A stretch of 64,000 nt of DNA, taken from NCBI RefSeq assembly GCF_017094525.1, contig NZ_CP064788.1, positions 868,001-932,000 of the forward strand. The letters run 5' to 3'. Below, one piece after another: positions 20,981 to 44,978 of the stretch (the first letter of the stretch is position 1; each line of letters starts with the position of its first letter). The DNA comes from Halapricum desulfuricans (GTDB lineage: Archaea; Halobacteriota; Halobacteria; Halobacteriales; Haloarculaceae). The notes beneath the pieces were generated by a model. The model was not told where the DNA came from, ran no database searches, and saw only the letters and a program-made list of their open reading frames with translations. Both the position numbers and the translations under genes were made by a program.

Positions 20981-21060
20981 ATACTGCCGGCTGTAAGTTC
21001 GTAAAGATATTCGGCACGACGTCGTGCCGAATCATTTCGAAAAGTTACAGCCGGCAGTAT
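20981..21060 (-). repeat. 80-bp stem-loop element abutting the rfcS stop codon
   Basis: The arms ATACTGCCGGCTGTAA (20981-20996) and its perfect reverse complement (21045-21060) enclose a 48-base interior that itself contains a perfect 24-bp palindrome (21009-21032). The outer base at 21060 is the last base of the rfcS TAA stop (minus strand). A relative of the same length and orientation follows guaA at 45895-45975. The element lies where an rfcS mRNA would end, so terminator, mRNA-stability structure or small mobile repeat are all possible. Confidence 0.75.
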
Positions 21061-24000
21061 TAGTCTTCCAGCGCGAGCGACGCCAGCAGCGCCTCGAGTT
21101 GGATACGCTCGTTCGCGCCTTCGGTGATCCGGTAGTCGGCCTCGCCGACGCGGTCGAGAATCCGCACGGCGGCCTCGTCGCCGACATCGAACTCCCAGAC
21201 TGACCGGTGGATCTGATCGAGGATGTCTCCGCCGGCGATGCCCTGATCGGTGAGCAGTCGGTCGAGTTCCGACCGCGCGGCGGTGAAATCGCCGTCCAGC
21301 GCCTGCTCGACCATCGCAGTGATCTCTTCGGGACGGGCCGTCGAGGTGATCTTGAAGACGGCGTCCTCGTCGACGACGTTGCCGGTGACCGAAGCGGCCT
21401 GTAGCCCGTTGATCGCCTTGCGCATGTCGCCGCCGACCACGTAGATCAGCGCCTCGACGCCGTCGTCAGTGATCTCGATTCCCTCGGCCTCGGCGATCCG
21501 GAGGATCTGCTCTTCGATGGCGTCGTCACCGAGCGGCGAGAACCGGAAGACGGCACAGCGAGACTGGATGGGGTCGATGATCTGACTGGAGTAGTTACAC
21601 GAGAGGATAAACCGGACGTTGTTCGAGAACTGCTCCATCGTCCGGCGGAGCGCTGATTGCGCCTCGGAGGTAAGTGCGTCGGCCTCATCGAGGAATATAA
21701 TACGATATTCGTACCCTCCAAAAGAAGTCCGCGCGAAGGACTTGACCCGGTCGCGAATGACGTCGATCCCGCGCTGGTCGGAAGCGTTCAGCTCCAGGAA
21801 GTTGTCCTGCCAGTCGTCGCCGTACAGCTCGCGGGCGATCGCCATGGCGGAAGTCGTATTGTGAACAACTGTTGGCACTTCCCCAGCGACGTAATTACGA
21901 TGTGTCGGAACGGTGAGGTCGTATACGTGAATGGGCTCGTCGACGGTTTCAATTTCCGTCACTTCGTCGAAGTACAACCTGGCTGTTGCGAGTGTGTCCA
22001 GCGTAGCGACTAGTTCGACAGCTTTTGCAGACAGCATTTCCGAGGCCATCTCGTCGATACGAGTCGCCACTGTTTCGAACCGGGTCAGCGACTTGATCGA
22101 GTGGTCGTTGTTCGTCAAGAGGTTCTTGATATCGGTTCCCCGAAGATGCGTTCCGTTGGCGATGGCACTGTACTCGAGATCGAGAGAATCGACGGCGCCC
22201 CGGAGCGTCGCTTTTAGTTCGCCAATATCTGGATAGTCGTTGGCGTCGAGCTTTTCGAGTAAGTCGAACGCTCGTCCAGCGTATGGGTTCCGGTCTCCAG
22301 TCCCGTATTCCGCAAGCCGGGAAGCACTGATACCAGTTGATTCCGCAACCGCTGACTGGGCAGATCGTTCGGTAAGCGCGTGTCGTGTCTCGGCCCATCG
22401 GATCGGCACCGACGACACTTTCTGGATTGTCGGCCGGACAGCGACTAGCGTCTCTCTCACTTCTTGCGCTGCTTCGAGACGCTCGGAAGCGGCTTCGATG
22501 ACGTCATCAAGCGCGTGGCGGTATCGCTCACGACCCGGCGTTTCAGGGTTCAACGACTTCGGAACTAGCGCCGACTTCGAGAGGTTGAGTTCGTCACAGA
22601 GGCTATCGACTGCCGTCTGAACAGGCATTGTGTCGTGATTTGGATTCCCCTCCTTCGAAGCGTGACGTGTCAGTGCCTCGCGCTTGTAGTCAATCGAGAA
22701 TCCGACTTCGTCCTCGAACCGAGCTAGATGGGATGCGCCAGATATCAACAACGTCTCATACTGGCGTTCGGTCCCGCTCCCGTTTGTTGCCGCTTTGTGT
22801 TTGGTCTTCCGGCGGCTTGGAATCCCGAAACCCGCGAGCAGATATGACAACAGCGTAATGAGCCGCCCGTCTTTCTGTGAGAGTTCGATAATACCGTTCT
22901 TTGAGACGTGACTTTCGGCATCGAACACAGCTCGTAGAAATCGACGCCTCGTCTTCTCGTCAGCTCGAGTCAGACGATTCCCGATAGCACGGTCCGACTC
23001 ACCTTTTGCCGGAAAGACATCGAAACAGGATTCAAGGAACGCGGTCAACGATCGGCTATTGATACCAACGTATGGAACGTCTTTCTGCGTTCCTCGTTTT
23101 GACTCGATCCCGAATAGGCGTTGCGCGAGTGATTCAAACCGATCGAGTAATTGCTCGTCAGTGTTGTAGAACTTGATTCGCCCGTCTTCTATTTGCGCTT
23201 CACTCACAGCGAGCCCCAGAAATTCGCCGATCTCTGGGGAAACCTCCCAGACTGGTGAAATAGGCGGGGAACGACGACCGTTCGAAGTGGCAACGCGCTG
23301 GATTGCGATGATGTGGTCTTGCAGACGCGACTGCGCAACGTCGAGGTCACGGAGGTATGAGAGCGAACAGACAGTGCTTTGAGTTTCGAGGGTGTCGGAG
23401 TCAATTCGGCGGCGCACTGCTGTCGCATATTTACGCGTCACGTCAGTACGCGAAGCTATTTCTTTCGGAGTTTGGTCTAATCGTAACCCACGAATGATCT
23501 GTTTCTTTTGCCCGACGAACTGCTCTTCGGGCGGAATATCATGCTCTCGTGCGAACGTTTCAGAGACATGAACGAGAGTGCGGTCCCCATCAAGCGCTTG
23601 GAGCCAGTCAAGGTCAGTATCGGTTTCGGGTAGTGGTGCATGGAGCGGCCGGACGATACGATCTCCGGGTTCGAGATCCGCGGCCGGTTGCCACGAGAGC
23701 CCGTCATTGGTGATGACGAGGTACCGATGCTCTGGAGTGGTCGTCATCTCTGTCCCATCCCTGCTCGTAATCCGGATCCCCGTTTCGGCGTGATCACTGT
23801 ACAGGTGAGACACGGGCGAGTACTCCATTTTCCCACTGTCGGCGAATGATAACACCTGCAGTGAGGAGGGTGCCGGCTCGAAACCATTGGCGTCGCCGAC
23901 AATATCTTCGATTTGGTATAGCCCACTGTTCGTGAGTACCGGTGTGTCACCAGTCACACACTTTCCCGTACCTGCAGGACCTGAAAATAACATGTGGCTC

Positions 24001-24140
24001 AGGTCGTTTCGGTCGACGTAACTCTGCAGTCGTTCGATGATATCCTCGTGGCCGGCGACCTCCGAGAGAGTCTGGGGACGGTATTTCTCGATCCAGACTT
24101 CCTCGCGGCCCGCCCGCGACGCTGACTCGCCCTCGCTCAT
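21060..24140 (-). CDS. rfcS: Replication factor C small subunit with an intein
   Basis: A 1,026-residue precursor. The host part is 325 residues: 1-60 ends in the Walker A GPAGTGK, which is interrupted by a 701-residue intein (21858-23960), and resumes with [11 protein letters not shown]. Walker B is FLDEADALT, the SRC box [10 protein letters not shown], sensor 2 [11 protein letters not shown]. With the large subunit it loads the PCNA clamp at primer ends. ATG 24140 ([22 protein letters not shown]) is preceded by a TATA-like TTTATC at 24165-24170, ruling out the longer upstream frame that reads through a tandem repeat. The stop overlaps the stem-loop element. Confidence 0.95.
21858..23960 (-). 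other. Intein in the RfcS P-loop, with LAGLIDADG endonuclease
   Basis: The spliced-out segment is 701 residues, from Cys ([13 protein letters not shown], block A) to VVHN (block G), followed by Thr of the extein. Block B is [10 protein letters not shown]. The homing endonuclease motifs are FLGLAVSEA (block C) and [10 protein letters not shown] (block E); the acidic residues E and D are both kept, so it could still cut. Block F is [17 protein letters not shown]. The site, after GPAGTGK, is the known RFC intein insertion point. The intein is visibly more A/T-rich than the extein. Confidence 0.93.
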
Positions 24141-24164
24141 GGTCGTGGTGTGGCCCCGGTCGGT

Positions 24165-24170
24165 GATAAA
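24165..24170 (-). promoter_or_regulatory. TATA-like box for rfcS
   Basis: The minus strand reads TTTATC, 25-30 bases before ATG 24140. It supports that start over the longer open frame and lies just before the tandem repeat at 24174. Confidence 0.5.
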
Positions 24171-24173
24171 CCC

Positions 24174-24316
24174 CGCGAGGACGAGCGAAGCGAGTCCTCG
24201 AAGTGAAGCGAGCGGTGACAACGGAGCCGTGAGCCGCGAGGACGAGCGAAGCGAGTCCTCGAAGTGAAGCGAGCGGGGAGAGACGACCCGCGAGCCGCGA
24301 GGACGAGCGAAGCGAG
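24174..24316. repeat. 61-bp-period tandem repeat with hairpins
   Basis: A 42-base unit starting CGCGAGGACGAGCGAAGCGA recurs at 24174, 24235 and (partial) 24296, exactly 61 bases apart. The first two copies continue as GTCCTCGAAGTGAAGCGAGC; the third stops at 24316. The 19-base spacers differ. Each unit holds GAGGAC...GTCCTC, able to fold into a hairpin. The repeat fills the rfcS/samp2 intergenic gap and so lies between two divergent promoters. Confidence 0.8.
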
Positions 24317-24361
24317 TTGCGAGAACGCTACGCTCATGTGGGCTGGCACGAATCCACACGT

Positions 24362-40996: not shown

Positions 40997-41335
40997 ATGT
41001 CCGACGACGACATCGACGCCATCGCGGACGCGCTGGGTGCGGTCAAGGCGGGGACGGACCGCTCGACGCTACCGGTCAGATCAGTCGCTGACGACGGCGA
41101 TATCGTGCGGATCTCCCTCGAGACGCCGGCCGGAAACGTCTTCGAGCGCGAACTGAAGCGTCCGCCGGTGTGGGGACCCAACTGCGAACTGAAGACGCTG
41201 CTCGACGCCTACGACCTCGGTCCCGACGAGGTGGACGCCCTGAAGGGGAAGGCTCTGCCCGTCAGGCGGGAGGTCGTCGACGGGCGGCCGCGGTTCGAAC
41301 TCGATCTCGACGCGCTCAGCGATAAGAAAACATAA
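40997..41335 (+). CDS. Hypothetical protein (112 aa)
   Basis: A soluble acidic protein, MSDDDIDAIADALGAVKAGTDR, with a beta-rich middle (IVRISLETPAGNVFERELKRPPVWGPNCELKTLLDAYDLGPDEV) and a conserved-looking WGPNCELKTLLDAY motif. I do not recognise the family. A TATA-like box precedes it at the expected distance. Its stop at 41333-41335 is immediately followed by the 10-bp duplication that bounds the inserted kinase unit. Confidence 0.65.
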   Translation: MSDDDIDAIADALGAVKAGTDRSTLPVRSVADDGDIVRISLETPAGNVFERELKRPPVWGPNCELKTLLDAYDLGPDEVDALKGKALPVRREVVDGRPRFELDLDALSDKKT

Positions 41336-41345
41336 CTACACAAGT
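41336..41345. repeat. Left 10-bp direct repeat (putative target-site duplication)
   Basis: CTACACAAGT occurs here and again, perfectly, at 43200-43209. The two copies bound the 41346-43199 unit exactly at the outer terminal inverted repeats. Confidence 0.65.
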
Positions 41346-41518
41346 AGCGGTGATATAGAAGTCTTCACACATCCTGACCTGCCCGATCTTGGTTTTGAGT
41401 AGACAAGATTTCGCTCTGATATGAGCCATTTGGCCCTCTGAATGTCGGTTCGGTTAATACGATCCCGGTGATCGCAATCCGCCGAGTTAGGCCTTGAGAA
41501 CTATTCTGCATCACTGCC
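41346..41518. repeat. Direct repeat A (MITE-like, 173 bp)
   Basis: It begins AGCGGTGATATAGAAGTCTT and ends with the inverted form, whose reverse complement is GGCAGTGATGCAGAATAGTT. It shares identical blocks of 54 bases (41401-41454 vs 43088-43141) and 37 bases (41479-41515 vs 43160-43196) with repeat B. No ORF of its own. Confidence 0.75.
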
Positions 41519-41547
41519 ACAATGTTATACAAGATCGGGATTGCTCG

Positions 41548-42972
41548 CTACTGGTTCAGGCGGGGGAGTGTCACTTGTAGAGCTGTTTCGGGGATTGGCC
41601 GACCAACGAGTTCAATCTCTCCACCGATCTCAAGCAGCGTCAAATAAACCTGCGCTATGTCCAATCCAAGGCCGTGGTTTAGCTCAGTCTCTACCCCGCG
41701 AGTGAGTAGATCGTGATGGCTATCTGAGAGTAAGGGTTCGTTTCCGCGGATCGTCACCACCACTTCCGTCTCTGAGATGTCAACGGTCACATCGATGGCT
41801 GGTTGCGACATATACTCCCCAGTGTGTGAGAGGAGCTGTCCGATGGCGGAGTTTGCTGGTGCCGGTATCGCGACTGTCTCATCGGCAGTCGGAGCAGCAA
41901 CTGACCCGGTTGTGGTCTCTGCAAGGACGGCCTCCATCGTGATCACGAGTTCTTCGAGGTTGAGTGGTTTAGAGCGTGCCACTGACTTGTCAGTAAGGAA
42001 CTGAGACTGGGTGACTTGACGGCTTAACCCGGCTAGATCTGCGGCTGCGGTCTCGATTTTCTCGGCGGCTTTCTGTGTGAGTCCCGAATCTGGGTCTTCA
42101 TCATTCTTGAGAGCCGAGGTGTGCCCCTGAATGATCGTTAGTTTGTTCCGTAGATTGTGTCGGAGCACCCGATGCAGGACTTCAAGTCCGTGGCGACGCC
42201 GCTTACGGTCGGTGATCTCGACTGCAGTCCCAATGACACCAGTCACGGTGTCATCATCGTTGTAGAGCGGCTGGGCGAATAGTTCCGTATGGAGTCGGGA
42301 ACCGTCTTTCGTACGAAGAACTGTCTCATATCCGTTGAGATCCTCGCCGTCAAGGATACGATTGAGCAAGTCAGTAAGTGATTCCTCAGTCAGTAACGGA
42401 TATGATTCACCGACGATTTCGGCAGAACTGTATCCGAACGTGTCTTCCGCCGCTTGATTCCACAACTGGATTTGTCCTTCGGTGTCAAGAGCAGCGATTG
42501 GTAGCGGAGCCGCATCGAGGAGCGTTTTGAGTCGAGTTGTCGTTGTCCGGAGTTGCTGTTGGCGTTCGAGACGAGCACTGATATCACGGAAGACACCGAG
42601 TACGAACGTCCGATTTTGCTTTTGAATACGTTGGGCGTTGATTTCCACTGGGACGCATTCGCCCGTCTGTGTCTCAATATAGAGCGGGCTGCCGTCCGGG
42701 AGGCGTTCGACCTGTTCACTCTCGCGCGCACGGCTGAACGCAGTGTCGTAGGCGTCGCGATTCTCCGCTGGGTGGAGTGTGTGTCGTGTATGGCCAACTA
42801 GCGTCTCGGGCTGGCATTCAAACAATTCCCCAGCTGCATCGTTAACCGCGACAATTTCGTCCGTGGTGATGTCTACAACAATCACTGCATCCGGGATACT
42901 TTCAAGGACAGTAGTCAACGAAAGTGTCGGGATCGCGTTCAACCTCTCGTACGACCGGTTCACTTCGGACAT
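41548..42972 (-). CDS. PAS-PAS sensor histidine kinase (mobile passenger gene)
   Basis: A 474-residue soluble kinase. PAS 1 is at about 18-135 (SIPDAVIVVDITTDEIVAVNDAAGELF), PAS 2 at about 145-258 (LLDAAPLPIAALDTEGQIQLWNQAAEDTFG), the HisKA box is HRVLRHNLRNKLTIIQG with H272, and the ATPase domain at about 360-474 has a weak N box (APANSAIGQLLSH) and NHGLGLDIAQ as G2. No receiver or TM segment. The open frame runs on upstream through repeat B, but ATG 42972 is where kinase-like sequence begins. A 60-base sample (42061-42120) has 33 G+C, lower than neighbouring genes. Confidence 0.82.
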   Translation of the reverse strand: MSEVNRSYERLNAIPTLSLTTVLESIPDAVIVVDITTDEIVAVNDAAGELFECQPETLVGHTRHTLHPAENRDAYDTAFSRARESEQVERLPDGSPLYIETQTGECVPVEINAQRIQKQNRTFVLGVFRDISARLERQQQLRTTTTRLKTLLDAAPLPIAALDTEGQIQLWNQAAEDTFGYSSAEIVGESYPLLTEESLTDLLNRILDGEDLNGYETVLRTKDGSRLHTELFAQPLYNDDDTVTGVIGTAVEITDRKRRRHGLEVLHRVLRHNLRNKLTIIQGHTSALKNDEDPDSGLTQKAAEKIETAAADLAGLSRQVTQSQFLTDKSVARSKPLNLEELVITMEAVLAETTTGSVAAPTADETVAIPAPANSAIGQLLSHTGEYMSQPAIDVTVDISETEVVVTIRGNEPLLSDSHHDLLTRGVETELNHGLGLDIAQVYLTLLEIGGEIELVGRPIPETALQVTLPRLNQ

Positions 42973-43035
42973 TTCATTCTCACATCCACTTTGGCTGATA
43001 GCTTGTGAACGGAGTGCCCAACAATTTGGGCTGCC

Positions 43036-43199
43036 GGTAGTGCAGAAGTCTTCACACACCCTGGACTGCCCGGTCTTGGTTTTGAATAGACAAGATTTCG
43101 CTCTGATATGAGCCATTTGGCCCTCTGAATGTCGGTTCGGTGATCCAGATAATCGAAACCCGCCGAGTTAGGCCTTGAGAACTATTCTGCATCACTTCC
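43036..43199. repeat. Direct repeat B (MITE-like, 164 bp)
   Basis: It starts GGTAGTGCAGAAGTCTTCAC, which aligns to the A left end with a 3-base deletion, and ends in ATTCTGCATCACTTCC. It lies on the promoter side of the kinase gene and may contain its promoter. Between it and the kinase ATG is a short hairpin (CCCAAATTGTTGGG, about 43017-43030). Confidence 0.72.
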
Positions 43200-43209
43200 C
43201 TACACAAGT
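43200..43209. repeat. Right 10-bp direct repeat (putative target-site duplication)
   Basis: CTACACAAGT, identical to 41336-41345. It lies about 85 bases upstream of the pyrG TATA-like box, so the unit inserted just outside the pyrG promoter. Confidence 0.65.
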
Positions 43210-43293
43210 GCGAACCCGCCCGAACACTTCCGGGTGACGACGAAGGTCGGCGGGGAGTGACAGCCGTCCACGAACCGGATCGGTCCCGAAATC

Positions 43294-43322: not shown

Positions 43323-44978
43323 ATGCCCACTGAATCCGACACGGGGTACGACCCCACACTCGGAAACAAGTTCGTTTTCGTCACCGGCGGGGTGATGTCC
43401 GGGCTCGGCAAGGGGATCACGGCCGCCAGCACCGGCCGACTCCTGAAAAACGCCGGGTTCGACGTCACTGCTGTCAAGATCGACCCGTACCTGAACGTCG
43501 ACGCAGGCACGATGAACCCCTTCCAGCACGGCGAGGTGTACGTGCTCAAGGACGGCGGCGAGGTCGACCTCGACCTGGGGAACTACGAGCGGTTCCTCGA
43601 TGAGGACATGACCTCCGACCACAACGTCACGACCGGCAAGACCTATCGCCACGTCATCGAGAAGGAACGCGCCGGCGACTACCTCGGCAAGACCGTCCAG
43701 ATCATCCCGCACATCACCGACGACATCAAACGGCGGATCCGCGAAGCCGCCGAAGGGACCGACGTCTGTATCGTCGAGGTCGGTGGGACCGTCGGCGACA
43801 TCGAGGGGATGCCCTATCTGGAGGCGCTGCGGCAGTTCGCTCACGAACAGGACGACAACGACATCCTCTTTACCCACGTCACGCTCGTCCCCTACTCGAA
43901 AAACGGCGAGCAGAAGACCAAGCCGACCCAACACTCCGTGAAGGAACTGCGCTCGATCGGCCTCCAGCCGGATATCCTGGTCGGGCGCTGTGAGGATCGG
44001 CTCTACCCCGACGTCAAGGAGAAAATCGCGCTGTTCTGTGACGTCCCGACGGAGGCGGTCTTCTCGAACCCGGACGTCGAGGACATCTATCACGTCCCGC
44101 TGATGGTCGAGGAGGAAGGCCTCGACGAGTACGTCATGCAGGAACTCGGACTCGCGGAGCGCGCACTGCCCGAAGAGGAACGCGACAACACCTGGCGGAA
44201 CCTCGTCACACAGGAGACCACCGGCGAGGTCGACATCGCCCTCGTGGGGAAGTACGACCTCGAGGACGCCTACATGTCGGTCAACGAGGCGCTGAAACAC
44301 GCCGGCCTGGAGAAGAACGTCGACGTCAATATCCGCTGGGTCGACTCCGACGAGGACGACGTCACCGAGAGCGCGAACCTCACCGAGGCCGACGGCGTCG
44401 TCGTCCCCGGAGGGTTCGGTGCCCGCGGCACGGAAGGCAAGGTCGAGGCGATCCGGTACGCCCGCGAGCACGACGTGCCGTTTTTGGGGCTGTGTCTGGG
44501 CTTCCAGATGGCCGTCGTCGAGATCGCCCGCAACGTTCTGGGGTACGAGGAGGCCCACTCCGCGGAGATGGACGAGGAGACGCCCGATCCGGTCATCGAC
44601 ATCCTGCCCGAGCAGGAACACACCGAGGACATGGGCGGGACGATGCGACTCGGAGCCCACCAGACCGACATCACGCCCGGGACGCTCGCGGAAGACCTCT
44701 ACGAGTCGACGGTCTGCACCGAACGGCATCGCCACCGCTACGAGGTCAACCCCGAGTACTTCGAGGACTTCGCCGAGACCTCGGTGGTCTTTTCCGGTCG
44801 CGCGGGTCGGCGGATGGAGATCCTCGAACTCGACGACCACCCCTACTTCCTGGGGACGCAGTTCCACCCCGAGTTCCGCTCGCGGCCGACGCGCGCCTCG
44901 CCGCCCTTCGTCGGGCTACTCGAGGCAGTGCTTGGCGAACGTGACTGGCGCGAACCGGAAACGGAGGTGGAGGCCTGA
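43323..44978 (+). CDS. pyrG: CTP synthase
   Basis: A 551-residue enzyme that aminates UTP to CTP with glutamine and ATP. The synthetase domain starts [21 protein letters not shown] and contains [21 protein letters not shown] and [14 protein letters not shown]. The C-terminal class I glutamine amidotransferase has [12 protein letters not shown], the nucleophile Cys in [11 protein letters not shown], and the H-x-E in [15 protein letters not shown] 43323 gives the family's N-terminus. The stop overlaps the guaA start (TGATG), so two amidotransferase-linked nucleotide genes are coupled. Confidence 0.97.

Follow-up and report, generated by a model that had tools for sequence, protein, structure and literature searches.

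MITE-bounded composite transposons are known in bacteria, where a pair of Tn3-derived miniature elements bounds each TIME-COMP (PMC13367494). MITE-associated passenger DNA without a transposase of its own is likewise found in the MITE-flanked class 1 integrons of Acinetobacter (reviewed in PMC10969869) and in the qnrS2 mobile insertion cassette (PMC5444012). The MITEs of Haloquadratum walsbyi, as far as the accessible part of their description goes (PMC3119063), also lack a transposase, share their ends and duplication length with insertion sequences, and in some cases have no intact partner in the genome; no pair of them around a cargo gene is described in that part. In the literature searched, itself limited in extent, no archaeal MITE-bounded composite was found.

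The window analyzed here, a 64,000-nucleotide stretch of the Halapricum desulfuricans chromosome, contains a block at positions 41346 to 43199 that we consider, with moderate confidence, to be a non-autonomous MITE-bounded composite transposon, mobilized in trans and inserted once. It shares with TIME-COMPs the arrangement of two transposase-less miniature elements, which in TIME-COMPs are often in direct orientation, on either side of a passenger gene, the target duplication being confined to the outer ends. However, its ends are IS5-like rather than Tn3, its duplication is 10 bp rather than 5 bp, it resides on an archaeal chromosome rather than enterobacterial plasmids, its cargo is a sensor rather than a resistance gene, and it was seen at one insertion site only. 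It is therefore not a TIME-COMP in the strict sense, which is defined by Tn3-family ends and a 5-bp duplication. The Acinetobacter integrons and the qnrS2 cassette differ from it in element family and cargo and are found in several strains or plasmids.

The 1.85-kb block lies between a gene for a 112-aa protein (40997 to 41335, plus strand), conserved in 6/6 genus genomes, and pyrG, encoding CTP synthase (43323 to 44978, plus strand). MITE copy A occupies 41346 to 41518 and copy B 43035 to 43199 (left limit approximate), both on the plus strand. They are direct repeats with matching blocks of 107 bp (92%) and 58 bp (90%), offset in register by a 6-bp deletion private to B. The sequence CTACACAAGT is present at 41336 to 41345, immediately after the upstream gene's stop codon, and again at 43200 to 43209, and is absent from both inner ends. 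Among random position pairs drawn within the window and given the same ±3-bp slack, 4/20,000 matched over at least 10 bp (chance, ∼2e-4). Because the inner (left) end of B is eroded in the window, with a deletion of ∼115 bp relative to the sister species G005, the missing inner duplication had to be checked in that species, which keeps ∼115 bp between the cargo gene and B. It was absent there too. Two MITE copies around a non-transposase cargo, with direct repeats confined to their outer sides, are thus present in two genomes, as expected of a composite transposon; insertion at two or more sites, which would be supporting evidence for mobility rather than part of the strict definition, was not observed, a single site being occupied. 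The preliminary description had taken A and B for direct copies framed by one outer 10-bp repeat, which holds in the window and in G005, and had proposed that the whole moved as one unit without its own transposase, which the outer-only duplication supports, as it fits a single insertion.

A and B are members of a ∼176-bp MITE family that, in the proposed search of haloarchaeal genomes with repeat A, was found in Halapricum, Halorhabdus, and other haloarchaeal genera. Members are short (<500 bp), lack a transposase, and carry GGCGGTGGTGCAGAA... terminal inverted repeats on both sides. More than 10 intact solo copies were identified in several genera, most of them flanked by their own duplication of 7 to 10 bp and some by none. 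The target duplications at these independent sites include CAACTGACG, CTGATAGAA, GACTGTATAA, CCATTATT, TAATTGTT, CTAGGTAGA, and CTGCGATG, as well as further ones. The repeats are therefore MITEs, in line with the first description as MITE-like, and not ordinary intergenic repeats present at many loci without such duplications, a finding that had been named as refuting the proposal. The genome containing the window holds one further full copy and one truncated copy, and plasmid pHSR-Bgl01 of Halapricum desulfuricans carries a solo copy; apart from the latter, plasmid, phage, and viral collections yielded only two weak plasmid matches. No second MITE pair around any cargo was found in 392 order-level genomes. 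As a separate observation, a 55-bp sequence (G001:C5, 1 to 55) is repeated at the ends of many G001 contigs and probably represents the terminus of another mobile element; in the genome of the window, part of it is found ∼110 bp away from a MITE (2847983).

The MITE ends match those of an autonomous IS5-like insertion sequence of 1,068/1,069 bp, the type of partner that the preliminary description had suggested looking for. The copy in G154 (1,069 bp) has an open 332-aa transposase frame with a DDE_Tnp_1 domain and agrees with the MITE ends at 24/24 bp on the left and 23/24 bp on the right. G119 carries five copies of 1,068 bp with ends GGCGGTGGTGCAGAAGTCCTCACAAG, related to the MITE ends, and with duplications of 9 to 10 bp. 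The same lineage also occurs on a Halorientalis marina plasmid. Transposase relatives at about 54 to 55% identity are annotated as IS5-like (ISHti7, ISNpe15, and ISNpe2, all haloarchaeal) and belong to the same broad transposase family, from which the parent element stands apart as a separate 1,068/1,069-bp lineage with GGCGGTGGTGCAGAA ends. IS6/IS26 parentage, suggested by similar-looking ends (GGC-CTG-TGCA-AA), was ruled out: no matching end pair was found around 30 haloarchaeal IS240/IS6 transposase loci, as a pseudo-compound element of that family would have.

Within the genome of the window, all that was found of the parent element was a 671-bp copy with an internal deletion, remnants of its ends, and partial matches that are more distant, and G005 has no match to it at all. 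Since neither carrier genome was found to have an intact partner transposase, the unit is probably immobile today. At G000:C1:2022300-2022360, a right and a left end of the parent element, oriented in parallel, are separated by 33 bp and precede a decayed transposase start; this is a nested or tandem remnant.

In the sister species G005, ∼95% identical in this region, A, the gene, B, and both copies of CTACACAAGT are found at the identical site. Synonymous divergence between the two species is alike for the cargo gene (dS, 0.139) and the upstream flank gene (dS, 0.132); hence, inheritance of the unit has been vertical from the species split onward, and there seems to have been one insertion, in their common ancestor. 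The A and B copies of both species form one group (bootstrap, 92%), being 90 to 94% identical among themselves and at most 88.6% identical to other MITE copies. As the 6-bp deletion in B is present in both species, A and B were already distinct before the split. The A copy of G005 carries a B-like tract at which A of the window retains the ancestral letters, a pattern that points to gene conversion between A and B.

These data can be accommodated in a single scheme. Two ∼176-bp MITEs of the IS5-like family, in direct orientation, would bound the PAS-sensor gene; a transposase supplied in trans by the full-length 1,068/1,069-bp insertion sequence would act on the outer ends of both A and B, used together in one transposition; and the whole 1.85 kb would have been inserted between the 112-aa gene and pyrG in an ancestor shared by the window species and G005, duplicating 10 bp of the target. 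Counting for this reading are the outer 10-bp duplication, with none for A or B alone in both genomes, the close relationship of A and B to each other, the shared site with similar dS in flank and cargo, and the duplications of solo MITEs and of an insertion sequence with matching ends. Counting against it, no second insertion site of the composite was found, and homologous recombination at a solo MITE is another way of generating direct repeats of this kind.

The latter route is the main rival, possible but less likely. Here, a solo MITE would have inserted first, making the CTACACAAGT duplication, and a circle carrying a MITE and the sensor gene would then have integrated into it by homologous recombination to give MITE-gene-MITE. 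The resulting anatomy, with direct orientation and outer duplication only, is identical to that observed, A and B are sister copies, and the B-like tract in A of G005 indicates that the two still recombine. Moreover, this route has been proposed for Tn3-derived MITESen1 structures that have the location and direct repeat of a solo copy (PMC13367494). However, none of the genomes examined has a solo MITE at the site, and the circle or pre-existing MITE-gene junction that the route requires was not found elsewhere.

In two relatives, G004 and G001, a gene for a 415-aa family-2 glycosyltransferase lies between the upstream gene and pyrG; this insert was considered as a kinase gene without MITEs, which was ruled out, the glycosyltransferase being unrelated. 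Only about 20 to 60 bp separate the matched flanks in G002 and G003. In the window, a 48-bp remnant of the 3′ end of the glycosyltransferase gene follows the unit on its right (43213 to 43260, plus strand; last 15 codons and the stop), and no orthologue was found in G000 or G005, the only relative elsewhere being 47% identical. Beside pyrG, two related species retain the gene intact and two have lost it. Therefore, the insertion occupies a deletion scar. The native flanks of G004 and G001 lack CTACACAAGT, and the site was thus altered before or during the insertion. Among species representatives, no empty site with a single CTACACAAGT, as predicted in the preliminary description, was found, and unit-free relatives have a different spacer or the glycosyltransferase gene; this, too, counts against the single-insertion scheme. 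As the duplication is intact on both sides, presumably either the deletion preceded the insertion, or a whole fragment was imported together with its duplication.

We regard the second of these courses as rather improbable. The composite would have jumped elsewhere, and a fragment including the duplication would have replaced the glycosyltransferase gene by deletion-coupled insertion, CTACACAAGT being donor sequence. The position of the unit exactly on the scar of a gene intact in G004 and G001 and the lack of CTACACAAGT in their flanks would both be explained, and deletion-coupled insertions are described for Haloquadratum (PMC3119063). However, one extra event is required, the donor locus CTACACAAGT-A ... 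B-CTACACAAGT was not found, and a plain deletion leaving a short junction before insertion is simpler. For the composite inserted directly at this site, we infer that the glycosyltransferase gene was lost beforehand. Finally, it is very improbable that MITEs inserted independently to the left and right of a resident kinase gene and that the 10-bp match is due to chance: MITEs do insert repeatedly in these genomes, but neither A nor B has a duplication of its own, the 10-bp match of the outer ends is shared by two species, and no relative has the kinase at this locus without the repeats, which was the other finding named as refuting.

The cargo is a single minus-strand gene between the repeats, best read from 42972 to 41548 (474 aa). 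Position 42972 is the most likely start; a 522-aa open reading frame with its start within B is a mechanical extension. The protein combines two PAS domains with an H-box (HNLRNK) and a G-box-like motif (GLGLD) in a histidine-kinase-like C terminus, where the HATPase_c match reached 20.3 bits, under the Pfam cut-off of 26.4. A canonical histidine kinase has recognizable N, D, and G boxes; in the cargo and its close homologues, N and D boxes cannot be recognized, the more distant G002 protein being different in this respect. Hence, of the original assignment as a PAS-PAS histidine kinase, the PAS domains stand, and the kinase label is doubtful because the ATPase domain has no recognizable N and D boxes. 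The cargo may be a signaling protein without kinase activity. In a family of haloarchaeal PAS-PAS proteins, the alignment shows the phospho-acceptor H-box kept and the N and D boxes unrecognizable, so that this is possibly a pseudokinase family. Between the window and G005, the cargo gene has a dN of 0.018 and a dN/dS ratio of ∼0.13; it is kept under purifying selection.

The preliminary description had further envisaged paired elements spreading a sensor kinase among haloarchaea. This is not supported: a single insertion was seen, inherited by two sister species, and homologues of the cargo elsewhere are at most 61% identical, with no MITE found near them. The nearest, encoded at another locus in G001 close to genes for an MCP and a shikimate-kinase-like protein, was rejected as the donor, being too divergent (61%) and without a MITE. 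Plasmid, phage, and viral collections contained no relative of the kinase.

The Halapricum unit is therefore best described as one old event of a known kind. It is a well-preserved MITE-bounded composite on an archaeal chromosome, for which the insertion sequence with matching ends was identified, the insertion was dated relative to a species split, and the cargo was found to be under selection. The case suggests that gene carriage by MITE pairs, known in bacteria for resistance genes, is possible in archaea as well. A single fixed event does not demonstrate a running route for the spread of signaling genes, and the broader proposal that IS5-type MITE pairs are a real haloarchaeal class of mobile cassettes moving chromosomal regulatory genes between sites, with this unit as one fixed example, seems doubtful to us.

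In base composition, the cargo gene is A/T-richer than its neighbors, as noted initially, with a GC content of 54.4% (window, 65.7%) and a GC3 of 56.6% (pyrG, 88.2%). A second AT-rich stretch in the window, at 21060 to 24359 on the minus strand, encodes a replication factor C small subunit with an intein-like insert (CVTGDTPVL...VVHN).
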